NCBI GenBank assembly: GCA_947478965.1
Contig: CANJXW010000007.1
Location: 1-10,830 of the forward strand
DNA: 10,830 bases
Source of the DNA: Candidatus Nanopelagicaceae bacterium
Lineage (GTDB): Bacteria; Actinomycetota; Actinomycetes; Nanopelagicales; Nanopelagicaceae
Direction: 5' to 3'
Both the position numbers and the translations under genes were made by a program. The notes beneath the pieces are model-generated. The model searched no databases and was not told the DNA's origin. It worked only from the letters and a program-made list of their open reading frames with translations. Below are positions 2-10,830 of the stretch, one piece after another; the stretch's first letter is position 1, and every line of letters begins with the position of its first letter.

Positions 2-628
2 CTAGCTAAAGAGCTTGGACTTAAGATCAACCAGCTCAACACATCTTTTGATGGCCTTATGCCAAGCCTTGTGGCCGGCAAGTGCGACATCATGTGGACT
101 GGCCTGTATCTGAGCAACAAGCGTCTCGCAGTTGCAGATGGTGTTGTTTACATGAACACAGGTGCTGGCTTGGTTGTTCCAACTGGTAACCCAAAGAAGA
201 TTTCAACTGGAATGTCACTCTGCGGTTTAACTGTTTCAGTTCAGGGCGAGGGCTCAAACTGGCAGATACTGCAAGACCAGAACAAGGCATGTGCTGCTGC
301 GGGAAAGAAAGCTCTCACAGTTCAGTCATACCCAAAAACAGCTCAGACAGTAGCTGCTGTGCTCTCAGGCAAAGCAGATGCGCTAATCGAAACTGACGTT
401 GCAGTGCCAGAAATTACTGACGCTTCCAGCGGAAAGCTCGTTGAGCAGAAGAAGGTATTTAAGGCTTCAACTCAGTTTGCAGTTTATATGCAAAAGGGAT
501 CAAGCAACTTCTTCAAGATTAAATCAGCCGTTCGTAAGCTCATTCAAGATGGAACTCTTGGAGCTATTGCAACCAAGTACGGATTAGACCCTAAGAAAGT
601 TACATCGCTTAAGAAAGCAGCGATCTAG
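2..628 (+). CDS. Amino-acid ABC transporter solute-binding protein, family 3 (5'-truncated)
   Basis: The reading frame is open from the first base, so the N-terminus, including any signal peptide and much of lobe 1, lies outside the window; 208 residues are visible. The protein would capture a polar or charged amino acid outside the membrane and deliver it to the permease encoded downstream. Family 3 hallmarks are visible: an F-x-G-L-x-P-S-L-x-x-G-K-x-D segment at the start, an S-N-K-R segment whose Arg normally binds the ligand alpha-carboxylate, a G-K-A-D-A-L-I-E-T-D segment near visible residue 125 whose Asp normally binds the alpha-amino group, and a closing lobe ending in G-T-L-G-A-I-A-T-K-Y-G. 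Two Cys flank the hinge region, as in many actinobacterial homologues. The ligand cannot be read from sequence; an arginine-like compound is inferred from the downstream enzymes. The Met codon at 59 is internal. Family call firm, ligand open. Confidence 0.9.
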   Translation, partial: LAKELGLKINQLNTSFDGLMPSLVAGKCDIMWTGLYLSNKRLAVADGVVYMNTGAGLVVPTGNPKKISTGMSLCGLTVSVQGEGSNWQILQDQNKACAAAGKKALTVQSYPKTAQTVAAVLSGKADALIETDVAVPEITDASSGKLVEQKKVFKASTQFAVYMQKGSSNFFKIKSAVRKLIQDGTLGAIATKYGLDPKKVTSLKKAAI

Positions 629-642
629 TAACTAATTAGTCT

Positions 643-687
643 GTAAGGGGATGAGTGTGTTTAAATCGCACTTATCCCCTTACTTTT
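643..687 (+). terminator. Hairpin terminator/attenuator after the binding-protein gene
   Basis: A 17-bp stem (643-659 with 667-683, including two G-U pairs) encloses a 7-nt loop, TTTAAAT, and is followed by TTTT. It begins 14 bases after the binding-protein stop and ends before the permease ribosome-binding site. A partial terminator here would give much more binding protein than membrane components from one promoter, a common arrangement in ABC operons. The U-run is short, so read-through is likely. There is no T-run on the opposite strand, so it works in the plus direction only. Confidence 0.8.
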
Positions 688-710
688 AATCCGAGACCAA
701 AAAGAACTCA

Positions 711-715
711 GAGGG
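711..715 (+). promoter_or_regulatory. Ribosome-binding site that fixes a TTG start
   Basis: GAGGG lies 7 bases before the TTG at 723. It supports TTG as the permease start over the in-frame ATG at 765, which would remove the first 14 residues and has no comparable purine-rich site in front of it. Confidence 0.7.
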
Positions 716-722
716 AATTAAA

Positions 723-1433
723 TTGAAATTTGAATTGGATATCTTCCTTGACGCTATTTTTTCTATGGCATATTTAAAGGGTGCTGGAATATCCATAGCC
801 CTGGCAACTCTTTGCCAATTTTTAGCTGTAATTCTCGGATTCTTTCTCACACTCATGCGAGTGAGCAAGAACAAGATTTTGGTTTCAATATCAGGAATAT
901 ATATTTGGTTCTTCCGAGCAATCCCAGCCCTCTTGCTCTTGATGGTCTTCTGGTTCTCAATTCCGGAGATTTTTCCACCCTTTCGTCAACCTTGGTACAG
1001 CCCCTTTATAGCTGCGATGCTTGGATTCGCAGTATTAGAAGCCGCGTATATGGCTGAAATTCTCCGAGCTGCGCTCATTAGCGTTGATGATGGACAACCG
1101 CTCGCAGCACGAGCACTTGGTATGACGCCGTCGCAGGTTATGAGAAAAGTTACCCTTCCTCAACTCATTCGAATTGCAATACCTCCCACAGCCAATGAAT
1201 ACATTGGAATGATTAAGTACACAAGTCTTGCAACAGTAATCTCACTCCAGGAACTCCTCACAACTGCAGGAAATGGAGTGAATAAGACGTTTCGTTATTC
1301 AGAATATTACGCCGCAGCCGGTGTCTATTACTTAGCAATGGTTTCAGTACTCATGTTTGCCCAATCACGTATTGAGCGAAAGTTTGCTTGGATTTCAACG
1401 ACAGGCAAAGTCTCACAGAAAGCGAAACGATGA
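723..1433 (+). CDS. Polar amino-acid ABC transporter permease (HisM/GlnP type)
   Basis: This 236-residue inner-membrane protein forms the channel for the binding protein encoded upstream. It has about five hydrophobic segments, roughly residues 15-45, 52-80, 93-115, 160-182 and 196-214. Family signatures include F-F-R-A-I-P-A-L-L (63-71), matching the usual FRGTP-type loop, and a cytoplasmic coupling loop G-Q-P-L-A-A-R-A-L-G-M-T at 124-135 followed by T-L-P-Q at 144-147. In that loop the Glu that normally opens the EAA motif is Leu127, a mild departure. Only one permease gene is present, so the channel is probably a homodimer unless a partner lies upstream of the window. Start TTG at 723. The stop overlaps the ATPase start as ATGA, implying translational coupling. 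Confidence 0.92.
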   Translation: MKFELDIFLDAIFSMAYLKGAGISIALATLCQFLAVILGFFLTLMRVSKNKILVSISGIYIWFFRAIPALLLLMVFWFSIPEIFPPFRQPWYSPFIAAMLGFAVLEAAYMAEILRAALISVDDGQPLAARALGMTPSQVMRKVTLPQLIRIAIPPTANEYIGMIKYTSLATVISLQELLTTAGNGVNKTFRYSEYYAAAGVYYLAMVSVLMFAQSRIERKFAWISTTGKVSQKAKR

Positions 1434-2185
1434 ATCTAGTAGAAGTACACAACCTCCATAAGCATTATGGCTCAAATCATATTCTTAAGGGAGTAAACCT
1501 CGAAGTTAAAACTGGCGATGTGAAGGCAATTCTTGGCCCATCAGGTTCTGGAAAGTCAACGCTTCTTCGTTTAATCGCGCTCCTTGAACCCATCGATCAA
1601 GGGTCCATACGTGTCGATGGCAGAGTCCTAGCTAAAAATGAAGATGGCCATAAACAACGTGATCATGAAAAAAGCCTTGCGATTCTTCGCCGTGGAATCG
1701 GCATGGTCTTCCAAAAATTCAACCTATTCCCTCATCTCAATGCAATCGATAACGTTGCACTAGCACTTATTACGGTTCAGAAAATGAACCGAAGAGATGC
1801 ACTTGATAAATCAGCTGAAATGTTAAAGCGAGTAGGGCTTGCAGACCGCATGAATTTCTTTCCATCTGAGCTCTCGGGTGGTCAACAGCAAAGAGTCGCA
1901 ATCGCCAGAGCGCTTGTACTCGAACCGAAGTTGATGCTCTTTGATGAGCCAACATCAGCCCTAGATCCCGAGCTCGTTCGCGAAGTACTCAACGTGATTG
2001 AACAACTTGCGGCCGATGGAATGACAATGTTGATTGTTACTCACGAGGTTGGTTTTGCTCGAAAGATCGCCAATGAGGTTGTCATGTTTGATGAAGGCGA
2101 GATCGTAGAGACTGGAACTCCTGAAGAAATTTTCACCAATGCACAGCATGCCAGAACGCGAAAGTTTCTTGAGCACGTTTTATGA
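1430..2185 (+). CDS. Polar amino-acid ABC transporter ATP-binding protein (HisP/GlnQ type)
   Basis: This cytoplasmic ATPase of 251 residues is the standard length for the family and powers the importer. All nucleotide-binding elements are intact: Walker A GPSGSGKST (36-44), Q-loop Gln95, signature LSGGQQQ (148-154), Walker B LMLFDEP (168-174), D-loop SALD (176-179) and switch His205. The stretch T-H-E-V-G-F-A-R at 204-211 and the E-T-G-T-P-E-E-I-F ending are typical of the polar-amino-acid subfamily. The ATG at 1430 is preferred: it gives the 4-bp ATGA overlap with the permease stop and has AGAAAG at 1417-1422. A longer version from a TTG at 1388 would add 14 residues that match nothing in the family and lie inside the permease gene. 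The stop overlaps the next start, again as ATGA. Confidence 0.95.
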   Translation: MNLVEVHNLHKHYGSNHILKGVNLEVKTGDVKAILGPSGSGKSTLLRLIALLEPIDQGSIRVDGRVLAKNEDGHKQRDHEKSLAILRRGIGMVFQKFNLFPHLNAIDNVALALITVQKMNRRDALDKSAEMLKRVGLADRMNFFPSELSGGQQQRVAIARALVLEPKLMLFDEPTSALDPELVREVLNVIEQLAADGMTMLIVTHEVGFARKIANEVVMFDEGEIVETGTPEEIFTNAQHARTRKFLEHVL

Positions 2186-3153
2186 CGCTCAAAGCTGTTT
2201 ATACCGATACCGATGACCTAGACCCAACCGCAGGAATCGAAAGATTACAAGCTGCAGGTTTTGAAGTTCTGTACCTAGAAACGCACGATCCAGAGAAAAT
2301 TGTGACTGCGGCGATGGATGCAGATGCTCTCCTGCTTGGGTATGCACCGATCACGGCTGCCATGCTTGCCAAGATGGAAAAGCTTCAAATCGTTTCATTG
2401 CTCAGCACGGGATATGACAATATTGATATCAAAGCTGCCACTGATCGTGAAATATGTGTCTCAAATATTGGCGCAACTTCGGCAGAAGAAGTCGCAACTC
2501 ACGCTCTAGCCCTGACCCTTTCAATCTCTAGAGGGATTGAGACCTATCGCAAGGTAGCTGCTCGCCGCGAATGGTTCAAAACTCCTTATCCGTTTATTCC
2601 ACCACGGCTATCGGCTAAGAATCTCGGTGTTGTTGGTTTTGGAAATATCGGCCGCCAGTTCGCAAAGATAGCTCAGCCACTCTTCAAATCTGTCTCATTT
2701 TATGATCCGATGGTAAAAATAGGAGAAGTCATCAACGGTGTTGAATCTAAGGATTTGGATTCAATACTTCAAGATTGCGATGTGATCTCACTTCACCTGC
2801 CCTTGCTGCCAACGACTCATCACCTATTTAACGATCAAACTTTTGGGAAGATGAAAAAGGGTTCCGTCATCATCAACGTCTCACGAGGAGGCCTTATTGA
2901 TCCTGCTGCACTCATCAACGCGCTCAATTCGGGCCAACTTTTAGCTGCAGGACTAGATGTTCTTGAATCCGAACCACCGATTGCGGATGACCCACTTTTG
3001 AGCCATCCACGAGTGTTAATAACGCCACATGTTGCATTTCTTTCCGACTATTCAATGAGCGCATATATTGATGTTCAGGCTGAAAATGTCATGCAGTGGT
3101 TCGAAGGAAAAGAAGTAAAAAATAGCGTCAATGGAATAAGGGTGAAAAAGTGA
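2182..3153 (+). CDS. D-isomer-specific 2-hydroxyacid dehydrogenase (CtBP-like)
   Basis: This 323-residue NAD(P)-dependent enzyme interconverts a 2-oxoacid and its D-2-hydroxyacid in the cytoplasm. The N-terminal domain (about 1-100) includes S-T-G-Y-D-N-I-D at 75-82. The Rossmann domain carries G-F-G-N-I-G (152-157). The catalytic triad is visible as Arg235 in S-R-G-G, Glu264 in E-S-E-P and His283 in T-P-H. The spacing (29 and 19 residues) and the L-x-S-D-Y-S stretch after the His resemble the C-terminal-binding-protein branch. An Asp at 175, in F-Y-D-P, sits at about the end of the second strand, where an acidic residue usually favours NAD over NADP. The substrate is not readable. Its place between an amino-acid importer and a 2-oxoacid decarboxylase suggests a 2-oxoacid derived from the imported compound, possibly 2-ketoarginine or argininic acid. 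The gene is coupled to the ATPase gene by an ATGA overlap. Confidence 0.9.
   Translation: MTLKAVYTDTDDLDPTAGIERLQAAGFEVLYLETHDPEKIVTAAMDADALLLGYAPITAAMLAKMEKLQIVSLLSTGYDNIDIKAATDREICVSNIGATSAEEVATHALALTLSISRGIETYRKVAARREWFKTPYPFIPPRLSAKNLGVVGFGNIGRQFAKIAQPLFKSVSFYDPMVKIGEVINGVESKDLDSILQDCDVISLHLPLLPTTHHLFNDQTFGKMKKGSVIINVSRGGLIDPAALINALNSGQLLAAGLDVLESEPPIADDPLLSHPRVLITPHVAFLSDYSMSAYIDVQAENVMQWFEGKEVKNSVNGIRVKK
3138..3142 (+). promoter_or_regulatory. Ribosome-binding site for the decarboxylase GTG start
   Basis: AAGGG lies inside the last codons of the dehydrogenase gene, 7 bases before the GTG at 3150. It supports GTG as the true start and independent ribosome loading in addition to coupling. 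Confidence 0.65.
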
Positions 3154-4748
3154 GTTTTGGAAGCGAAGCAATCAAATTACTAGCTCAATATGACGTAGAT
3201 ACAATCTTCGGAATTCCGGGCGTCCATACAATCGAATATTACCGAGGCATCACAGAGACCGGAATGAAAACCGTTGTCCCTCGCCACGAACAAGGCGCCG
3301 GCTTTATGGCAGATGGATACACACGTATAAGTGGGAAACCAGGTGTTTGTGTTCTTGTCTCAGGTCCAGGAGTACTCAACGCTGCAACGCCAATCGCCCA
3401 AGCTTGGCATGATTCCATTCCAATGCTCATCATCGCTGCAAGTACCGATTCTGAACTTCGCGGGCGCAATCGCGGTCCCTTACATGATGTGCCGGATCAG
3501 GCTGCCTTCTTTGGTCAATTGACGTATACAAGCAAGACGGTCACATCACCCGAGGAATTCGCTGAAGTCATCGCTCGAACTTTTCATTCATGGGCAACAT
3601 CCCGACCACGCCCCGTTCATATTTCAATCCCTACAGATATTCTTGAGATGGAATGCGGACCTATTAAGAAAGTTGAAATTTCTGAGTTGGTTCCAACCGC
3701 ATCAGATGAACAAATCTCTCAAGTAGTTGCTGCTCTGGCAGAAGCACTTAGGCCAATAATCATTGTTGGTGGCGGCGCACTTCGAGCATCCTCTGAAATC
3801 CTTGCAATTGCTGAAGCGGTAAACGCACCGGTGTTAACGACAGGTAATGCTCGCGGAATAATTCCTCATGCTCATCCCCTTAGCGTCGGAACTTTGTTGC
3901 CATTTGGTGCAACCCGTGAACTCATCGAATCATCGGATCTTGTGATTGCGATTGGCACAGAATTTAGCGATGTTGACATTATTTACACCGGAAAGCGATT
4001 GCCACAACCAAAGAAGCTCATCCGTGTGGATATTGACTTAACGCAGCTCAATGCTGGGCTCACGGCGTGGCTTGGAATCACAAGTGACGCTCAAAGCTTT
4101 GCTAAAGCCCTTGTTGCTGGAATAAAGAGCGCAAGTCTTGTCTCACGATTTACTTCTGCATCTCAGGAAGTTACGAAGGTGAGAGAATCTGTCACCTGGA
4201 CTGATCAGTCACGGAGCCACTTTGCGTGGGTAGATGCCATTAACTCTGTGATTCCAATAGATGCAATTGTCTCCATCGATTCAACCCAACTTGCCTACAC
4301 CGCCCATCACTACATGCCATGGTCTAATCCTGGCTCATGGTTAGCTCCGTATGGACTTGGAACGCTCGGGCCTGCTCTGCCTATGGCCCTTGGTGCAAAA
4401 ATTGCAGCACCGGATAGACCCGTATTAGTCATCGCAGGTGATGGTGGTTTCTTATTTACAATCCAAGAGCTTGCAACCGCTCGAGATATCGGCGGGAATG
4501 TCGTCATTATAATTTGGGATAACGCGGGATATGGAGAAATTCGAGATTCATTCGATCGCGCCAAGGCATCTAGAACTGGTGTTGACGTTCAAACTTTTGA
4601 TTTGGTAACTATAGCTCGAGGATTTGGGCTTACCTCTGAACGCATAACAACTCCTGAACAATTGGCTGAGGCAATGAGAAAAGGTTTCGCCTCTTCCACT
4701 CCAACCTTCCTTGTTGTCACTGAGCCTGGATCGCCGGCAGATAAATGA
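3150..4748 (+). CDS. Thiamine-diphosphate decarboxylase, 5-guanidino-2-oxopentanoate decarboxylase-like (AruI family)
   Basis: A 532-residue enzyme of the acetolactate synthase/2-oxoacid decarboxylase superfamily with three domains: pyrimidine-binding (about 1-165), central (about 185-325) and diphosphate-binding (about 355-530). Glu47 in P-R-H-E-Q-G-A-G-F-M-A-D-G-Y is the conserved cofactor-activating Glu. Asp431 in G-D-G-G and Asn458 in W-D-N-A-G-Y-G-E-I, 27 residues apart, form the Mg-diphosphate site. From memory, the stretches G-I-P-G-V-H-T-I-E-Y-Y-R-G (21-33) and L-H-D-V-P-D-Q (111-117) match AruI of Pseudomonas, which decarboxylates 2-ketoarginine to 4-guanidinobutanal in the arginine transaminase pathway. 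I see no FAD- or regulatory-subunit context for acetolactate synthesis. The GTG start overlaps the previous stop as GTGA. Superfamily assignment is firm; substrate is inferred from motif recall and from the nearby ureohydrolase. Confidence 0.85.
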   Translation: MSFGSEAIKLLAQYDVDTIFGIPGVHTIEYYRGITETGMKTVVPRHEQGAGFMADGYTRISGKPGVCVLVSGPGVLNAATPIAQAWHDSIPMLIIAASTDSELRGRNRGPLHDVPDQAAFFGQLTYTSKTVTSPEEFAEVIARTFHSWATSRPRPVHISIPTDILEMECGPIKKVEISELVPTASDEQISQVVAALAEALRPIIIVGGGALRASSEILAIAEAVNAPVLTTGNARGIIPHAHPLSVGTLLPFGATRELIESSDLVIAIGTEFSDVDIIYTGKRLPQPKKLIRVDIDLTQLNAGLTAWLGITSDAQSFAKALVAGIKSASLVSRFTSASQEVTKVRESVTWTDQSRSHFAWVDAINSVIPIDAIVSIDSTQLAYTAHHYMPWSNPGSWLAPYGLGTLGPALPMALGAKIAAPDRPVLVIAGDGGFLFTIQELATARDIGGNVVIIIWDNAGYGEIRDSFDRAKASRTGVDVQTFDLVTIARGFGLTSERITTPEQLAEAMRKGFASSTPTFLVVTEPGSPADK

Positions 4749-6382
4749 AAACTAACAAAATATTCACGAACTTAATTGTTGCTGATCCTTCATCTAAGTC
4801 GAACGGTTCCACATCAATCCTGGTTCAAGGTGGCGAGATTCGTGCGATGGGAAGCTTTGAAAATGTGATGGCCACCCTTGGTGGCACGGATGTAGAAACT
4901 ATTGACCTGGGTGGAAAGTTTGTTCTACCTGGTTTTGTAGATCCTCACGCACATCCACTCATGTATGGACAGATGATGGATTGGGTTGATGTTGGCCCCA
5001 ATGAGGCAAAAGATATTCAAGAGATAATCGAAATACTGAAAAGCGCTGATAAGAGCCTTCCTCTTGGCGCTCCTCTTCGAGCATTTGGCTATGAACATAG
5101 AAATCTCACCGAAGGTCGCCATCCAACTCGATGGGATATCGATCAAATCGGAAGCGTGCGCGAAATCTATGTCATGAATGCAAGTGGCCATGGTGGAGTC
5201 GTAAATTCACTCGTTCTCGATGGCAACGGGATTACTGAAAAAACTCTCGACCCTGCTGGTGGCCGATTTGAACGTGATGAAAAAGGAATCCCAACGGGTG
5301 TTATCTGGGATGCTGCCTGCGACATATTAACTGGTGCAGATGGTGTAAAACTTTCAGATCATGGTCCAAATTTTCATTTACCCGATTCGCTTGAAGTACT
5401 CACTAAACAGCTACTTCAAGCAGAGACTGACTTCGTCAATCATGGAACGACTTCAATTGGTGATGCTCAAGTAAGCAAGCGCGAATTCGATACCTACCGC
5501 AACGCATTTCTTCAGAAGAAGACTAGATGCCGATATTCGTTTTATCTCACTTCCGCCCTTCTCAACGAGGCAACAGCACTTCGAGATGATTCATTTATTG
5601 ATGGCCAGTTCATGACATCTAATGGAATCAAACTCTACGTCGATGGAACCTTGGGTGGGTGGACTGCATATTTCCCTGAAGGTTATGCAGTTGATAAGAA
5701 TAAAACTGGACAGCTGTATCACTCCCAAGAGGATTACCAACGTCTTTTTCTTGAAGCTGGTGAAAAAGGATTTCACATTGCAACTCATGCACAATCACCA
5801 ACTGCTCTAGGAATGGTTATCGCTGCAACTCGAGCGCTGAGAGCTTTAGATTACAAAGCCTCTGATGGCAGTGAAATCATTGTCCGAATAGAACATTGCG
5901 GGCTTCCTATGACATCTCAAAGTAAAGAGTTTGCTGAATTAGGAATCATCTCTGTCAGCCAGCCCCTCCATCACCATAATTGGGGCGATGGAGTAATTAC
6001 CGCTGTTGGAGCAACTCTTGGTGGCCGATTTAATCCCCTAGGTGAATTTGTTCGAGAAGGCGTCTCATTTGCTCTCTCATCTGATGCGCCAGTTGCTAAG
6101 CCTCGACCATTTGAAGCTATTGCCGCCACGATTGATCGCCGTACCGTACATGGAAATTATATGGGTGATGAAAATCTAGCGATTGATGTAAAGACTGCTT
6201 TAATCGCACACACAATGGGTGGCGCGCAGGCCCTTGGTAAAGAAGCCCTGATCGGTTCTCTCGATATTGGGAAAAAAGCCGACTTTATCGTTCTCTCACA
6301 AGATCCACTCACGCTCGATGTCGAAGGGTTGCGCGCTCTTAAGGTTGAAGCAACTTGGATAGATGGCGAGAAAGTTTTTTAG
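4745..6382 (+). CDS. Amidohydrolase family 3 protein (YtcJ-like)
   Basis: A 545-residue metal-dependent hydrolase, normal length for the YtcJ branch of the amidohydrolase superfamily. It has a split beta-sandwich (N-terminal about 1-60, including G-K-F-V-L-P-G-F-V-D, and C-terminal from about 500, G-S-L-D-I-G-K-K-A-D-F-I-V-L) around a TIM barrel. Candidate metal and catalytic residues are His68 and His70 (HxH), Lys296 in G-I-K-L-Y-V-D-G, His348, His384 and Asp447 in S-S-D-A-P, so the site appears intact. Characterised relatives remove formyl or acyl groups from N-substituted amides, but most members have no known substrate. No signal peptide is seen, so it is probably cytoplasmic. It is coupled to the decarboxylase gene by an ATGA overlap and is the last gene of the plus train, so it probably acts on the same compound class. 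The actual reaction is unknown. Confidence 0.88.
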   Translation: MKTNKIFTNLIVADPSSKSNGSTSILVQGGEIRAMGSFENVMATLGGTDVETIDLGGKFVLPGFVDPHAHPLMYGQMMDWVDVGPNEAKDIQEIIEILKSADKSLPLGAPLRAFGYEHRNLTEGRHPTRWDIDQIGSVREIYVMNASGHGGVVNSLVLDGNGITEKTLDPAGGRFERDEKGIPTGVIWDAACDILTGADGVKLSDHGPNFHLPDSLEVLTKQLLQAETDFVNHGTTSIGDAQVSKREFDTYRNAFLQKKTRCRYSFYLTSALLNEATALRDDSFIDGQFMTSNGIKLYVDGTLGGWTAYFPEGYAVDKNKTGQLYHSQEDYQRLFLEAGEKGFHIATHAQSPTALGMVIAATRALRALDYKASDGSEIIVRIEHCGLPMTSQSKEFAELGIISVSQPLHHHNWGDGVITAVGATLGGRFNPLGEFVREGVSFALSSDAPVAKPRPFEAIAATIDRRTVHGNYMGDENLAIDVKTALIAHTMGGAQALGKEALIGSLDIGKKADFIVLSQDPLTLDVEGLRALKVEATWIDGEKVF

Positions 6383-7365
6383 TTTTTATGTTGTATGGCA
6401 AGAAGAGTGATGAGTTCATAGGCCATATGCGCTGCAGCGATACTCGTAATTTCTGCATGATCGTAAGCAGGAGCCACTTCAACCACGTCCGCTCCAACTA
6501 TGTTGAGTGAACCAAGCCCTCTAAGTATTGCCAGCATCTCTCGAGAGGAAAGTCCGCCTGCCTCAGGCGTACCTGTGCCAGGAGTAAATGCTGGGTCCAT
6601 TACATCGACATCAATCGAAACATAAACCGGCGCATTTCCAACGCGCTTTTTGATTCGCTCGATGACTCCAGCAGTTCCAATCTCAGGTACCGATGCAGCG
6701 GTAATAGCAGTGAAACCAAGAGCTACATCATCAAGTAAATCTTGGCGATCATAGAGAGGTCCACGAAGTCCAATATGAACCGATGATTCCTTTACTAGTA
6801 GACCTTCTTCTGTAGCTCGGCGAAATGGTGTTCCATGAGTACAAGGTTCGCCGAAATAGGTATCCCACGTGTCTAAATGTGCATCAAAGTGAATCAATGC
6901 AACGGGACCATGTAATTTATTGACAGCTCGTAAGATTGGTAGAGAAATAGTGTGATCTCCGCCAAGAGTGACGACAGATTTGCCATGCTTGTATAAATGA
7001 GAAATTCCTTCCTCAATTGATTTCACTGCCGCGGTAATATTAAATGGATTGACGCCAATATCTCCAGCATCGACAACTTGTACTAAAGAAAACGGAGCAG
7101 CTTCTTGAGAGAAGTTGTATGGACGCAGCAATCGTGATCCCTCACGGATTGCACTTGGACCGAATCGAGCGCCTGGACGATATGAAGTGCCGGCATCGAA
7201 GGGAACTCCGACAACTGCTATGTCGTAAGAATCCACCTCATCCATACGAGGAAGTCGGGCAAATGTCGCAGGTCCTGCAAAACGGGGTAACTTAAAGGAG
7301 TCTATTGGACCTACTTTTCCATCGCCTGAGACGGTGTACCGGTCCAAAGTATTCTCGTTATCCAT
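6379..7365 (-). CDS. Ureohydrolase of the agmatinase/guanidinobutyrase family
   Basis: A 328-residue Mn-dependent enzyme that would split a guanidino compound into an amine and urea. Metal ligands are all present: His138 in G-G-D-H-T, Asp161, His163 and Asp165 in D-A-H-L-D-T, and Asp252 and Asp254 in D-V-D-V-M-D-P; Glu296 lies in V-E-V-A-P. The sequence resembles actinobacterial proteins annotated as agmatinase and also Pseudomonas guanidinobutyrase GbuA. Tyr170 occupies what I recall as a specificity position (Met in GbuA, Tyr in guanidinopropionase). Agmatine, 4-guanidinobutyrate and 3-guanidinopropionate are all possible; the facing AruI-like gene favours guanidinobutyrate. I chose the ATG at 7365, which gives a family-like N-terminus and a possible leaderless promoter; an in-frame TTG at 7383 would add six residues. 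The gene converges on the amidohydrolase gene with a 4-bp overlap of stop codons. Confidence 0.9.
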   Translation of the reverse strand: MDNENTLDRYTVSGDGKVGPIDSFKLPRFAGPATFARLPRMDEVDSYDIAVVGVPFDAGTSYRPGARFGPSAIREGSRLLRPYNFSQEAAPFSLVQVVDAGDIGVNPFNITAAVKSIEEGISHLYKHGKSVVTLGGDHTISLPILRAVNKLHGPVALIHFDAHLDTWDTYFGEPCTHGTPFRRATEEGLLVKESSVHIGLRGPLYDRQDLLDDVALGFTAITAASVPEIGTAGVIERIKKRVGNAPVYVSIDVDVMDPAFTPGTGTPEAGGLSSREMLAILRGLGSLNIVGADVVEVAPAYDHAEITSIAAAHMAYELITLLAIQHKN

Positions 7366-7371
7366 GTCGTC

Positions 7372-7399
7372 AGGGTATACCAATTTTAAGCACTTTCAA
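7372..7399 (-). promoter_or_regulatory. Candidate promoter for a leaderless ureohydrolase transcript
   Basis: Reading the minus strand, TTGAAA (7399-7394) is followed after 16 bases by TACCCT (7377-7372), a TAnnnT-type -10. The ATG at 7365 begins 7 bases after the -10 ends, where transcription would be expected to start. No good ribosome-binding site precedes this ATG. Leaderless genes are common in Actinobacteria, so the arrangement is plausible, but the match is short and unproven. Confidence 0.35.
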
Positions 7400-7449: not shown

Positions 7450-8001
7450 CTAGCTGCTAATGAGCGCAAGGTTGTCGGCGATAACTGGCTGTAGACCGCG
7501 GAACCATTCCTCATAACCTGCATTATTTAGATGCAATCCAAATGTCTCTGGGTCTTCGCAATACTTTTGTTCGATGACGATTTCATCTGGGTCCTTCAAT
7601 AAGGAAAAAGCATCAAAATATAAAATCCCTAAATCCTCAAGAACGGGCTTTATCGAGGTATTGACTTCAATCATGCTCTTGGAAAATTCATCGCTTCTAG
7701 GAGAGAGAGAGTTCCAAATTATCGGCACCTCAGGCAATAATTTCCGCAAATTGCGCGCGTTCTCGAGAATATTTTCGATTACAACATCTTCAGTCAGTCT
7801 GTACTTACCGAAGTCATTTGTTCCGATCATGACGATCAAAAGTTCTGGTTGGGATTGCACGATTTCATTTAGTAGCCCGGCAAGATCACTGTTGGTATGG
7901 CCAGGGAATGCAAAGTTCGTCACATAATGTTCAGGTAGCCAGTACTGCCAAGGCCCACCATGAATAATGCTATCTCCTGCAAAAACAACTCTTCTCTTCA
8001 T
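7450..8001 (-). CDS. SGNH/GDSL-family hydrolase with atypical block V
   Basis: A 183-residue protein of the SGNH esterase/lipase fold. Block I is G-D-S with nucleophile Ser11, block II Gly34 in F-P-G-H-T, block III G-T-N-D at 60-63 (Asn62), and block V His157 in F-G-L-H-L-N. The Asp normally three residues before that His is Phe154, so the usual DxxH is incomplete; the nearest acidic residues are Glu152 and Asp150. No signal peptide is present, which points to the cytoplasm. I start it at the ATG at 8001, sharing one base with the upstream stop (TGATG) and preceded 6 bases earlier by AAAGGG; a TTG at 8022 would add seven residues that look like translated ribosome-binding site. Its position after malF-malG and an esterase suggests it removes an acyl group from an imported sugar. 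That role is inference. Confidence 0.82.
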   Translation of the reverse strand: MKRRVVFAGDSIIHGGPWQYWLPEHYVTNFAFPGHTNSDLAGLLNEIVQSQPELLIVMIGTNDFGKYRLTEDVVIENILENARNLRKLLPEVPIIWNSLSPRSDEFSKSMIEVNTSIKPVLEDLGILYFDAFSLLKDPDEIVIEQKYCEDPETFGLHLNNAGYEEWFRGLQPVIADNLALISS

Positions 8002-8870
8002 CACTTTCCCTTTCTTAGCCAAAAATCAAGAGCAGCCGGTGCATACCTGGCCCATGTAGCATTTGAGTGCGATCCTTTGTTGAGTACTCGTGTGATCAGG
8101 TCTTTATTCTCTCGGTAGCCTCTGCTCTTTATTAATTGATCTGCTTTATATTGCGATTGTTCATACAGCGCATCGAGTCCTTTGCTTCCACGACTCATCC
8201 ACAGTTTATGTTTTCCGGGAGTTGGAAAATCTCTCATCATCTTTTCGGCTAAGGCATCTCCTCCGATTACCCAGTGGGGCGAAAAGCTCAGAGATGTGTA
8301 GAAGAAATCAGGTCTACGGATAACTGAATAAATCGAAGCTAGACCACCCATACTTCCGCCAATAATGGCAGTCTTCTCATGGTTGATAACTTGACCGATG
8401 CGATCAGCAATCGCAGGAACGATGATGTCGATAATGTCATCAATTAATTGGTCTGCTGTCAGAGTGTCTAAGAAAGTATCTACTTTTGCTTGATACAAGC
8501 CGTAACTTTCAATCATCCAATTTTTCTGATCGCTCATGTATTGAGCAGGAACATATTCTTTTAAGCGACCAATATTATCTTCAAGATATGGCGTGTGATA
8601 AATACAAATAACCGTTGGAGATGCCTCATTATTAAGCGTGGCTACTCTTACAGCCGATTGTGCAATTTCCCACGTGGCTCTTTGATGTGGATTAATTCCG
8701 ATATTGCGTTTATCGAGCATATTTTGACCGTCATGAGCTACAAGAATGTGATCTCCAGGAACTCTTGGAGCCCAGTAATCAATAGTTCGATTGCCTATAC
8801 GAATTTTATAGACTGTTCCAGGAAGCCCTGTAACCTGAAATTCCTCAATGTCGAGAATAGATCGGTTCAT
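8001..8870 (-). CDS. Putative alpha/beta-hydrolase esterase (esterase D/enterochelin-esterase family)
   Basis: A 289-residue serine hydrolase of the putative-esterase family. Visible landmarks are H-D-G-Q-N at 46-50 (oxyanion region typical of the family), the nucleophile elbow G-G-S-M-G-G with Ser173, and a late G-S-H-S-N-A-T-W stretch with His268 as the likely catalytic His; the acid is probably Asp233 in S-K-G-L-D-A-L-Y. Family members cut carboxylic esters of sugars, siderophores or S-formylglutathione; nothing here points to siderophores. There is no signal peptide, so it probably acts on something already inside the cell. The ATG at 8870 overlaps the malG-type stop as ATGA. An AAGGG run directly abuts this ATG, too close for a normal ribosome-binding site, so initiation probably depends on coupling. 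An SGNH hydrolase follows at once, giving two ester hydrolases in tandem. Confidence 0.85.
   Translation of the reverse strand: MNRSILDIEEFQVTGLPGTVYKIRIGNRTIDYWAPRVPGDHILVAHDGQNMLDKRNIGINPHQRATWEIAQSAVRVATLNNEASPTVICIYHTPYLEDNIGRLKEYVPAQYMSDQKNWMIESYGLYQAKVDTFLDTLTADQLIDDIIDIIVPAIADRIGQVINHEKTAIIGGSMGGLASIYSVIRRPDFFYTSLSFSPHWVIGGDALAEKMMRDFPTPGKHKLWMSRGSKGLDALYEQSQYKADQLIKSRGYRENKDLITRVLNKGSHSNATWARYAPAALDFWLRKGK
8008..8016 (-). promoter_or_regulatory. Ribosome-binding site fixing the SGNH hydrolase start
   Basis: AAGAAAGGG on the minus strand, inside the end of the esterase gene, lies 6 bases before the ATG at 8001. It favours that ATG over the upstream TTG at 8022. Confidence 0.7.
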
Positions 8871-9754
8871 CCCTTGGTTGACCCACTTACAAGACCAGTT
8901 ACAAGGTACTTCTGTAAGAACATAAAGAGTGTAAGAACGGGAATAGTTGCAAGCAAGGCTCCAGCTGTAAATGGTCCCCAGTTCTTTCCATATTGACCAT
9001 AGATAAATTGTTGGAGCCCAACGGCAACAGTCATGTTATTGCTATCAAGGCCAAGAATGACCGAGGTAATGAGGTATTCGTTGAGCATCCCAATGAGAGA
9101 GAGCAGGAAAATAACGACAAATACCGGTATCGCAAGCGGAACTATTATTAGAGTAAAGATTGTGAAGTGGCTTGCACCATCAATTTTTGCTGCTTCATCT
9201 ATCTCTGTTGGAATGGTGTCAAAGAACCCTTTAAGCATCCATGTATTAACACCTAGAGCTCCACCACCAAAAATAAGAATCAGCGGCAATTGATGACCAA
9301 GCCCCAAGAAGGCAAAAGTCTTACCAAAGGTGTTGATGATGAGAAATAGGCTGGTTGCGGCTAATAATTGTGGAAACATCTGAACGATAAGAATTGTAGA
9401 TAATGTCAGTTTGCGCCCTTGAAATCTATGGCGACTGAGGGAATAAGCAGCCATCGCACCGATCATCGTCTGCATGACTGCTGCAGATATAGCTATGACG
9501 AGTGAATTTCGCACCCAAACCAAGAATGGCTTCTCTCGGTTTGAAAATAGCGCGGTGAAATTATCAAAACCTCGATGGAGCGGGATTAATTGCTGCGTAC
9601 TGACCTGGCCGGTGACATCAAAAGCCGCAGAAACCATCCACATCAGTGGAAAAATCGCAAAGATAGCTACGACGATTCCTACGAGATGGCGCCAGAGAAC
9701 TTTCTTGGCCCAAATTCTTATTTTTCTTCGTGCAATAAAGGTGGACTGGCTCAT
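8867..9754 (-). CDS. MalG-type carbohydrate ABC transporter permease
   Basis: A 295-residue inner-membrane subunit of a family 1 carbohydrate importer. A basic cytoplasmic N-terminus precedes the first membrane segment (about 24-44); further segments lie at about 84-105, 118-140, 155-172, 203-226 and 262-280. The coupling motif E-A-A-K-I-D-G-A-S is complete at 187-195. The C-terminus, G-L-V-S-G-S-T-K-G, resembles the end of E. coli MalG, where the tail contacts the MalK ATPase. The gene abuts the malF-type gene with no spacer (TAA directly followed by ATG). A GGAAGGG site at 9764-9770, within the upstream gene, lies 9 bases before the start. No sugar-binding protein or MalK-type ATPase is in the window; the binding protein is probably encoded upstream of malF. 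Confidence 0.93.
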   Translation of the reverse strand: MSQSTFIARRKIRIWAKKVLWRHLVGIVVAIFAIFPLMWMVSAAFDVTGQVSTQQLIPLHRGFDNFTALFSNREKPFLVWVRNSLVIAISAAVMQTMIGAMAAYSLSRHRFQGRKLTLSTILIVQMFPQLLAATSLFLIINTFGKTFAFLGLGHQLPLILIFGGGALGVNTWMLKGFFDTIPTEIDEAAKIDGASHFTIFTLIIVPLAIPVFVVIFLLSLIGMLNEYLITSVILGLDSNNMTVAVGLQQFIYGQYGKNWGPFTAGALLATIPVLTLFMFLQKYLVTGLVSGSTKG

Positions 9755-10830
9755 TTAATTGATCCCTTCCATTGTCTTCATACGACGCAACCCATAGATC
9801 GAGATCAACGCGATGAGCAAGAAGTTAAGAATTGAGAGCGCGCTAGCTAAGCCGTAGTTATTGCCCTCTTGCGAATTAAAGGCCAATTTATAGGTATATG
9901 AAATGAGGATATCTGTCGCCCCAGCGTTGCCGTTGGAATTTGGAAAAGTCGGTCCCCCACCCGTCAAGAGATAGATGACACCGAAGTTATTGAGAGCCAT
10001 AGCGAGTGATGCGACTAAGAGCGGCGCCAGCGTGCGCATAACGAGTGGCAGTTTTATCAAGCGGAAGGTTTTAAAAGGTGAAGCACCATCGATCTCTGCA
10101 GCTTCGATGATCTCATTAGGAATGGCTTGAATTGCACCCGTTGAAATTAGGAACATATATGGAAATGAGATCCAAATTTCTACAATAAGGACAGCCACAC
10201 GAGCCCAGAATGAATCCGTCAGCCAAGGTGTTGATATATGGAAGAGTCGATCAATTACTCCGCTTTCACCTTGAAAAAGTGCAGACCACACCAGAATGGA
10301 GAGCACGCTTGGGATAGCCAAGGGGGCGATAAAAATCGTTCGATAGATCCGCTTAGAGCGCATATTTGGAAAGTTGAAGATGAGGGCCAAGGTAAGCCCA
10401 AAGAGAAAACTCAAAATTACCAGGAGCAAGGCGTTAAAGATCGTCCAAGCCAAAACCGCTGCAAGAGGCCCTCTAATATCTTCATCATTGATAACAGAGG
10501 AGAAATTTCTCCAGCCTACATTGGCTTTCCAACCGGGGTATAAAACATCACCAGATTCGTTAACCATCTGCCCGTTATCATTAGGAAAGTAGCGCACACC
10601 GGTATCAACTTCAAGGAGCTCATCTTTCGTAGCTGAATAAATGAAAGACGGCTTAAAGGCCTGAAGGGTTTCTAAGTCTTGTGGCGCTAGGGAGATACCG
10701 TTCTTAAATTTAATGACCATATTTTGCAGTTCATCAGAATACGCAGAACTTTGAGTTTCATTGAGAATCGAAAACCCAATAACTTTCTGGATGGCTCCAT
10801 CGTTTGAAATCGAAACATCACCAAGAGCTA
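9755..10830 (-). CDS. malF: MalF-type maltose/oligosaccharide ABC transporter permease (5'-truncated)
   Basis: The frame is open to the edge of the window, so the N-terminus is missing; 357 residues are visible and the Met codon at 10720 is internal. The first 130 or so visible residues form a soluble stretch, including T-G-V-R-Y-F-P-N and G-W-R-N-F-S-S-V, that lines up from memory with the end of the large periplasmic P2 region of E. coli MalF, ahead of W-T-I-F-N-A-L-L. Membrane segments follow, then the coupling motif E-A-A-E-I-D-G-A-S near visible residue 242, L-L-T-G-G-G-P and S-Y-T-Y-K-L-A-F, all MalF-like. The P2-type insert is characteristic of maltose/maltodextrin systems rather than general sugar permeases. 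It heterodimerises with the MalG-type protein encoded next. The MalF type is well supported; the exact sugar is not. Confidence 0.9.
   Translation of the reverse strand, partial: ALGDVSISNDGAIQKVIGFSILNETQSSAYSDELQNMVIKFKNGISLAPQDLETLQAFKPSFIYSATKDELLEVDTGVRYFPNDNGQMVNESGDVLYPGWKANVGWRNFSSVINDEDIRGPLAAVLAWTIFNALLLVILSFLFGLTLALIFNFPNMRSKRIYRTIFIAPLAIPSVLSILVWSALFQGESGVIDRLFHISTPWLTDSFWARVAVLIVEIWISFPYMFLISTGAIQAIPNEIIEAAEIDGASPFKTFRLIKLPLVMRTLAPLLVASLAMALNNFGVIYLLTGGGPTFPNSNGNAGATDILISYTYKLAFNSQEGNNYGLASALSILNFLLIALISIYGLRRMKTMEGIN

Follow-up and report, generated by a model that had tools for sequence, protein, structure and literature searches.

Gene Content and Organization of the Locus

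The window analyzed here is a stretch of 10,830 nucleotides, positions 1-10830 of contig CANJXW010000007.1 from a Candidatus Nanopelagicaceae bacterium (assembly GCA_947478965.1; 0.78 Mb, 52% complete; 45% G+C), single-contig relatives in the genus having assemblies of 1.3-1.5 Mb. These sizes and the actinobacterial relatives of the decarboxylase point to an actinobacterium with a small genome that is probably aquatic. It carries a cluster of genes for an ATP-binding cassette (ABC) importer of the amino-acid type, a D-2-hydroxyacid dehydrogenase, a thiamine diphosphate (ThDP)-dependent 2-oxoacid decarboxylase, and an amidohydrolase, which face a gene for a ureohydrolase; this gene content, first read from the letters of the DNA alone, is confirmed by the open reading frames (ORFs) and by family profiles. 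The cluster is tentatively interpreted as serving the breakdown of a 2-hydroxy acid that is taken up from outside and has a guanidino side chain or a cationic one much like it.

On the forward strand, the gene for the family 3 substrate-binding protein of the importer (SBP_bac_3, positions 2-628; PF00497, 50.3 bits), the 5' end of which is cut at contig base 1, is followed by an intercistronic hairpin with a long stem (629-722; −31.5 kcal/mol), the importer permease (HEQRo/3TM type, 723-1433; PF00528, 79.4 bits; TIGR01726, 67.4 bits, cut-off 42.2), the importer ATPase (1430-2185; PF00005, 123.9 bits; the best NCBIfam models, EhuA at 304.6 and GlnQ at 300.1 bits, are both under their cut-offs), the dehydrogenase (2182-3153; PF02826, 182.2 bits, and PF00389, 89.6 bits, both over cut-off), the decarboxylase of the AruI (PRK07524) family (3150-4748), and an Amidohydro_3 (YtcJ-like) amidohydrolase (4745-6382; PF07969, 255.6 bits). 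The ureohydrolase, probably of the guanidino-acid type, lies on the reverse strand (6379-7383; PF00491, 327.3 bits). The sequence-only reading described the genes as chained by 4-bp overlaps, and this holds from the permease through the amidohydrolase (ATGA or GTGA at 1430-1433, 2182-2185, 3150-3153, and 4745-4748), but not for the binding-protein gene, which is separated from the permease by 94 bp holding the hairpin. The two trains converge tail to tail with a further 4-bp overlap (6379-6382). The ureohydrolase had also been ended at 7365, but this is an inner ATG, six codons downstream of the TTG at 7383 that the ORF reaches; either may be the start. Except for the contig-cut binding protein, the genes of the cluster look intact, and the enzymes retain the residues anticipated for activity.

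Among 135 genomes searched in the genus, 4, that of the window included, have an identically ordered six-gene train from the binding protein to the amidohydrolase, which is more than would be anticipated by chance. These four are the only carriers of the decarboxylase in the genus at E ≤ 1e-120 (G000, the window genome; G171; G055; and G014; genomes and loci are designated by G and L numbers), and the same four were recovered when 296 genomes of the family were searched at E ≤ 1e-95. At the same threshold, 15 of 394 genomes drawn from the class match, 3 from the genus of the window (window included) with at least 65% identity and 12 with 35-38%. The copy of Actinoplanes couchii is matched in 4 of 250 genomes of its family at E ≤ 1e-130, its own included, and 1 of 13 genomes is matched in the family of Kineosporia, with two copies.

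An aminotransferase and an aldehyde dehydrogenase are absent from the window, as had been pointed out earlier: a Pfam scan of its 11 ORFs detected neither, and at E ≤ 1e-5 seeds for both matched neither the window nor the related loci L134, L112, and L113. The possibility that they lie just outside the cluster was rejected from the closest relative, G171 (locus L134; 84-94% identical gene by gene), where a multicopper oxidase is next to the ureohydrolase and a dienelactone-hydrolase-like gene is on the other flank. Unlinked aldehyde dehydrogenases are present in all four genomes (3 in G000, 10 in G171, 8 in G014, and 9 in G055).

Lineage and Neighbors of the Decarboxylase

The decarboxylase exceeds the cut-off of the model for 5-guanidino-2-oxopentanoate decarboxylase (NF005712, 556.9 bits, cut-off 500) and scores 160 bits higher with it than with the second model; identity as an acetolactate synthase was rejected, the best such model giving 311 bits against a cut-off of 538. 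Its nearest named relatives, among the matches listed, are from Actinomycetota. Glu47, which is catalytic in ThDP enzymes, is present in the sequence RHEQ, the ThDP motif GDGG...DN is at residues 430-458, and Glu271 and Asp276 are invariant in 20 family members. Asp276 presumably aligns with His281 of benzoylformate decarboxylase, an alignment that is offered as a lead.

The more careful of two phylogenetic trees contains 42 rows, 38 from a quick tree of 98 rows and 4 new; in both, Pseudomonas sequences paired with AruH-like genes stand in for the assayed AruI of Pseudomonas aeruginosa, which was itself left out. The window gene falls in an actinobacterial clade of 10 rows (100/96) that is separate from the AruH-paired Pseudomonas clade. 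The earlier comparison of the enzyme with AruI is appropriate at the level of the family, where the score is over the NF005712 cut-off, but not at that of the tree, which places it outside the Pseudomonas AruI-type clade. The other rows of the clade are three more from the genus, A. couchii (L004), G731 (L160), G795 (L161), Kineosporia (L005), G871 (L162), and a further Kineosporia copy (L163); in the high-GC loci, genes were located by tblastn with seeds and by a GC3 caller. In 8 of the 10 rows, the decarboxylase has as neighbors an ABC importer of the amino-acid type and a D-2-hydroxyacid dehydrogenase. At L162, it is accompanied by a divergently placed ureohydrolase that is 62% identical to that of the window and belongs to the same ureohydrolase clade, and at L163 (8993-12385) it is followed by a flavin amine oxidase (174 bits), possibly representing an oxidase-fed version of the module. 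In the sister group, which joins the window clade at 100/100, an AruH-like aminotransferase is beside the decarboxylase in four of five rows; the fifth (L008) has weak matches to a dehydrogenase (31%) and to an aminotransferase (22%) more than 5 kb away. The tree and these neighborhoods, with a dehydrogenase, a flavin amine oxidase, or an aminotransferase beside related decarboxylases, suggest that one decarboxylase lineage has switched from one supplier of the 2-oxo acid to another.

The wider family was surveyed in the best 80 of at least 586 relatives, using tblastn seeds at E ≤ 1e-20 within 5 kb of the decarboxylase (54 of the 80 loci have 5 kb on both sides). An AruH-like aminotransferase is present in 32 of the 80 loci; ureohydrolases (9 loci) and symporters (7 loci) are less common, and a dehydrogenase of the window kind occurs in 2, both in the decarboxylase clade of the window. 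Of the 9 ureohydrolase loci, five are from Pseudomonas (L021, L034, L040, L062, and L076); like the window, they have an AruI-family decarboxylase no more than 5 kb from that enzyme. The ureohydrolase of these five is 90-97% identical to the guanidinobutyrase GbuA (Protein Data Bank entry 3nio), and decarboxylases of the AruI family therefore adjoin an orthologue of a known guanidinobutyrase; however, they differ from the window in having a sodium/solute symporter rather than an ABC importer and no such hydroxyacid dehydrogenase within 5 kb.

The Hydroxyacid Dehydrogenase and the Amidohydrolase

The window dehydrogenase contains both Pfam domains of the D-isomer-specific 2-hydroxyacid dehydrogenases together with Arg235, Glu264, and His283, corresponding to the Arg/Glu/His catalytic set of these enzymes. 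Its glycine motif, GFGNIG at residue 152, is followed by Asp175 in the sequence SFYDP; an aspartate in this location is associated with a preference for nicotinamide adenine dinucleotide (NAD) rather than its phosphate (NADP). When six genomes were searched with the protein, the decarboxylase-linked copy was the best match in all five that have one, by at least 70 bits, and the linked dehydrogenases of three high-GC genomes scored 203-218 bits, the next best match being at most 133. A tree of 39 rows unites the 8 linked copies with 7 database relatives in a single clade (100/100); 23 paralogues from the six genomes and a ureohydrolase-linked dehydrogenase from L139 lie outside it. The dehydrogenase and the decarboxylase thus have a common history, each dividing into a branch of the genus and a high-GC branch.

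The sequence-only reading left the hydroxyacid dehydrogenase with no place in the pathway, a view that finds no support here: the decarboxylase clade has no partners more constant than this enzyme and the importer. Since it stands where the sister group has an aminotransferase, it is not an odd extra, and its position and descent suggest that it may occupy the place of the aminotransferase in the pathway.

In the amidohydrolase, the HAH sequence at residues 68-70, His348, His384, and Asp447 are invariant in an alignment of 26 sequences, and the gene is kept in all four carriers in the genus. In the Kineosporia module, an M20 amidase adjoins (NF006772, 463.8 bits, cut-off 424); at a guess from this one case, an unrelated amidase may represent the same need met a second time.

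The Ureohydrolase

All six ligands of the binuclear metal center are present in the ureohydrolase (His144, Asp167, His169, Asp171, Asp258, and Asp260), and the earlier statement that they are intact is borne out. Its best relatives among solved chains are guanidinobutyrase (3nio, 285.5 bits), proclavaminate amidinohydrolase (PAH; 1gq6, 280.1 bits), and guanidinopropionase GpuA (3nip, 267.9 bits), all of which outrank the agmatinases; two agmatinase models also pass their cut-offs (PRK02190, 329.3 bits, cut-off 302; TIGR01230, 240.9 bits, cut-off 174.3). Assignment of the substrate by identity was rejected, the protein being about equidistant from the three references (46% for GbuA, 46% for PAH, and 44% for GpuA). 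In the phylogenetic tree, it does not group with GbuA but belongs to its own actinobacterial clade of 14 rows (100/97), which neighbors the GbuA/GpuA clade; other ureohydrolases of the genus (L150-L152) are placed elsewhere. The position of Met161 in GbuA, which we take to be a specificity position, is occupied by Tyr176, as in GpuA, and Trp173 is present where GbuA, GpuA, and PAH have Asn. Arg87 (in LLRPYN) is at the position of GbuA Arg72, which is proposed to contact the substrate carboxylate from a neighboring subunit (PMC9772407). The substrate is likely, from these comparisons, to be a guanidino acid.

A ureohydrolase of the window type is present in 12 of the 135 genus genomes (E ≤ 1e-58), including all four decarboxylase carriers. 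The probability of this co-occurrence by chance is 3.7e-5 with the genomes taken as independent and 0.007 with G000/G171 and G014/G055 taken as two lineages. The genus has a further type of ureohydrolase, and some PF00491 match is found in 122 of the 135 genomes. When relatives were checked for a ureohydrolase next to these genes, it was found in G171, where it is 94% identical and converges as in the window, and, in another layout, in G871, but in other relatives it was not adjacent. Together with the position of the decarboxylase outside the Pseudomonas AruI-type clade, this gives a mixed outcome for the two refutation criteria of the sequence-only reading. G014 (a single contig, 99% complete) and G055 have a relative of 57-59% identity away from the cluster, about 58 kb off in G014, with two carbon-nitrogen hydrolases, another Amidohydro_3 protein, and an NCS1 permease as neighbors. 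In Actinoplanes, a relative of 61-62% identity lies between an NCS1 permease and an aldehyde dehydrogenase, an arrangement in keeping with the final two steps of the pathway proposed below.

Two carbon-nitrogen hydrolases, another Amidohydro_3 protein, and an NCS1 permease also form a second context of the ureohydrolase at L141 (4245-10147), L140, L137, L142, and L135, perhaps that of another guanidino or ureide pathway. An arylformamidase match below cut-off (scanned in L143) or its relative is near the ureohydrolase in L136, L137, and L143. At L139 (350-4808, G028), a short contig without the decarboxylase, genes near the ureohydrolase include those for an ABC importer of the amino-acid type and a D-2-hydroxyacid dehydrogenase of a different kind, as well as a DUF2848 gene.

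Proposed Pathway and Alternative Explanations

The arginine transaminase pathway of Pseudomonas includes the steps catalyzed by AruH and AruI and the guanidinobutyrase GbuA. The locus in the window shares with it the family of the ThDP decarboxylase, a GbuA-related ureohydrolase, and an importer of the amino-acid type, but differs in the lack of an adjoining aminotransferase, in the D-2-hydroxyacid dehydrogenase in its place, in the added Amidohydro_3 protein, and in the location of the decarboxylase outside the AruI-type clade. On the reading favored here, at somewhat under even odds, the two systems would be related as a standard and a hydroxy-acid-fed variant of one pathway, the latter most likely leading from argininic acid to 4-guanidinobutanal and later to urea and γ-aminobutyrate (GABA). 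In the predicted order of steps, the ABC importer would take up the compound, and the amidohydrolase might free the hydroxy acid if it were supplied as an amide or cyclic form, this being the weakest step. The dehydrogenase would then oxidize the 2-hydroxy acid to the 2-oxo acid in an NAD+-dependent reaction, replacing the AruH aminotransferase, and the AruI-type ThDP enzyme would decarboxylate the 2-oxo acid to an aldehyde. An unlinked aldehyde dehydrogenase would yield the guanidino acid, from which the ureohydrolase would release urea, leaving GABA. With the side chain of arginine, the substrate would be argininic acid (2-hydroxy-5-guanidinopentanoate), the most economical candidate. The sequence-only reading, an actinobacterial version of the arginine route, was half right, since its decarboxylase and ureohydrolase stand with the caveats given, but it found no place for the dehydrogenase, the key to the variant.

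A parallel is provided by AspC-IlvB1 of Sinorhizobium meliloti, in which a decarboxylase homologous with AruI also adjoins the maker of its 2-oxo acid, but that maker is an aminotransferase and IlvB1 prefers the 5-amino oxo acid (PMC7268258). The module could accordingly act on a compound with a non-guanidino side chain, such as 5-amino-2-hydroxypentanoate or a larger polar acid, and the adjoining ureohydrolase of two genus members could belong to another pathway. Several observations favor such a substrate or otherwise weigh against the proposed pathway. IlvB1, named as AruI by homology, is sevenfold more active on 5-amino-2-oxopentanoate (PMC7268258), and the family name therefore does not fix a guanidino substrate. 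The window-clade decarboxylases also deviate at otherwise conserved positions (Leu76, which is their own, and His386, Phe468, and Ala473, which are common to the sister group). The Arg of GbuA is not a clean marker, as Arg is also present in L150-L152 (in a gapped stretch), with His in PAH and Gln in L139. Of the 8 dehydrogenase-linked rows, 6 have no adjacent ureohydrolase. Among the 12 genomes with the window-type enzyme, 8, several of them incomplete assemblies, showed no such decarboxylase, the ureohydrolase often being beside carbon-nitrogen hydrolases and an NCS1 permease. No ureohydrolase was detected at E ≤ 1e-30 in the Kineosporia genome G652 (8.3 Mb), despite its importer, decarboxylase, M20 amidase, and dehydrogenase, in the aminotransferase-type genomes G649, G650, G653, and G654, or in G655 (these last five being 1.0-1.6 Mb, completeness not stated). 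The Amidohydro_3 gene beside the decarboxylase was seen in the genus only, L004, L160, and L161 having none with the seeds used. In the literature searched, with subscription journals mostly outside the search, nothing was found for or against bacterial catabolism of argininic acid.

The proposal that urea release is a core part of the locus is consequently weakened: it fits the window, G171, and G871, where the genes are adjacent, but not G014 and G055, where they are unlinked, or G652, G649, G650, G653, and G654, where none was found. Against the non-guanidino alternative, however, all four decarboxylase genomes of the genus carry the window-type ureohydrolase, the two genes adjoin in a different layout in G871, and elsewhere in the family the decarboxylase is beside GbuA orthologues. 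A non-guanidino module would resemble in its logic the mandelamide route, which consists of an amidase, mandelate dehydrogenase, and benzoylformate decarboxylase, that is, an amidase, a 2-hydroxyacid dehydrogenase, and a ThDP 2-oxoacid decarboxylase; that route has an aromatic substrate and other enzyme families, whereas the window decarboxylase scores best with the 5-guanidino-2-oxopentanoate model. On balance, a non-guanidino substrate, with a 5-amino or another hydroxy acid, is regarded as rather unlikely, although it is the main rival. A more conventional explanation, that arginine is imported and converted by an unlinked aminotransferase to 2-ketoarginine in the ordinary arginine transaminase pathway, with the dehydrogenase and amidohydrolase having side functions, would account for the family name of the decarboxylase, the type of the importer, and the aminotransferase-linked sister group. 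It is nevertheless improbable, because aminotransferase seeds gave no match next to the decarboxylase in the window, L134, L112, L113, L004, L005, L160, or L161, whereas the dehydrogenase adjoins in all eight of these loci and shares the history of the decarboxylase. Least probable is that the dehydrogenase operates in the reducing direction as a safety valve, converting a surplus or toxic 2-oxo acid to the hydroxy acid rather than catalyzing an entry step: many members of its family serve as 2-ketoacid reductases, and its NCBIfam neighbors include glyoxylate reductases, but the Asp in SFYDP points by general rule to NAD and not NADP, and no other maker of a 2-oxo acid was recognized in the train.

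Returning to the hydroxy-acid-fed variant, a more specific form of it is possible but rather doubtful: a dedicated bacterial route for argininic acid or its amide, comprising the importer, a dehydrogenase replacing the aminotransferase, the decarboxylase, and the ureohydrolase, with a patchy distribution in small-genome actinobacteria and a related form in Actinoplanes and Kineosporia. If this were true, arginine-type carbon would enter metabolism via a hydroxy acid and not an amino acid, and there would be a testable pathway for a compound for which no microbial consumer was found in the literature searched. That literature also yielded no link between ketoarginine and a hydroxyacid dehydrogenase; the publications listed on argininic acid and dehydrogenases concern, by title, chiefly metabolomics and medicine, and in one published study argininic acid is a uremic solute tied to enzymes via a database (PMC8745165). 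The decarboxylase lineage would keep its reaction while the supplier seems to change between aminotransferase, flavin amine oxidase, and hydroxyacid dehydrogenase, and the gene name 5-guanidino-2-oxopentanoate decarboxylase need not imply transamination of arginine.

Importer, Regulatory Elements, and Flanking Genes

A full-length relative of the truncated binding protein is encoded in L134 (277 residues, 87.5% identical); its nearest solved chains are amino-acid binders, with weak matches (AncQR, 66.6 bits; the arginine-binding 3tql, 46.3 bits), and assignment of the substrate from the binding protein was rejected. The best NCBIfam match of the window binding protein is to the C-terminal part of a kinase model, StpK7 (65 bits, cut-off 900), which probably reflects merely a shared binding domain.

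Hairpins with different stem sequences are present at the same site in L134 (11496-11586), L112 (13650-13763), and L113 (8813-8917), and thus in all four carriers; perhaps they reduce expression downstream of the first gene. Riboswitch control was rejected, since neither the window nor the cluster region of six related loci matched Rfam; L112 has one flavin mononucleotide riboswitch, more than 4 kb from the gene train. Lrp/AsnC-like regulators, with matches below cut-off, are near the high-GC clusters in L004 (6452-7465 and 13177-14052) and L005 (6384-7472) and would fit an amino-acid-like effector.

Beyond the ureohydrolase, the reverse strand of the window (7450-10828) encodes a GDSL hydrolase, an esterase-like protein, and two ABC permeases, one of them MalF-like; these genes have no match on L134 and are therefore probably unrelated to the cluster.

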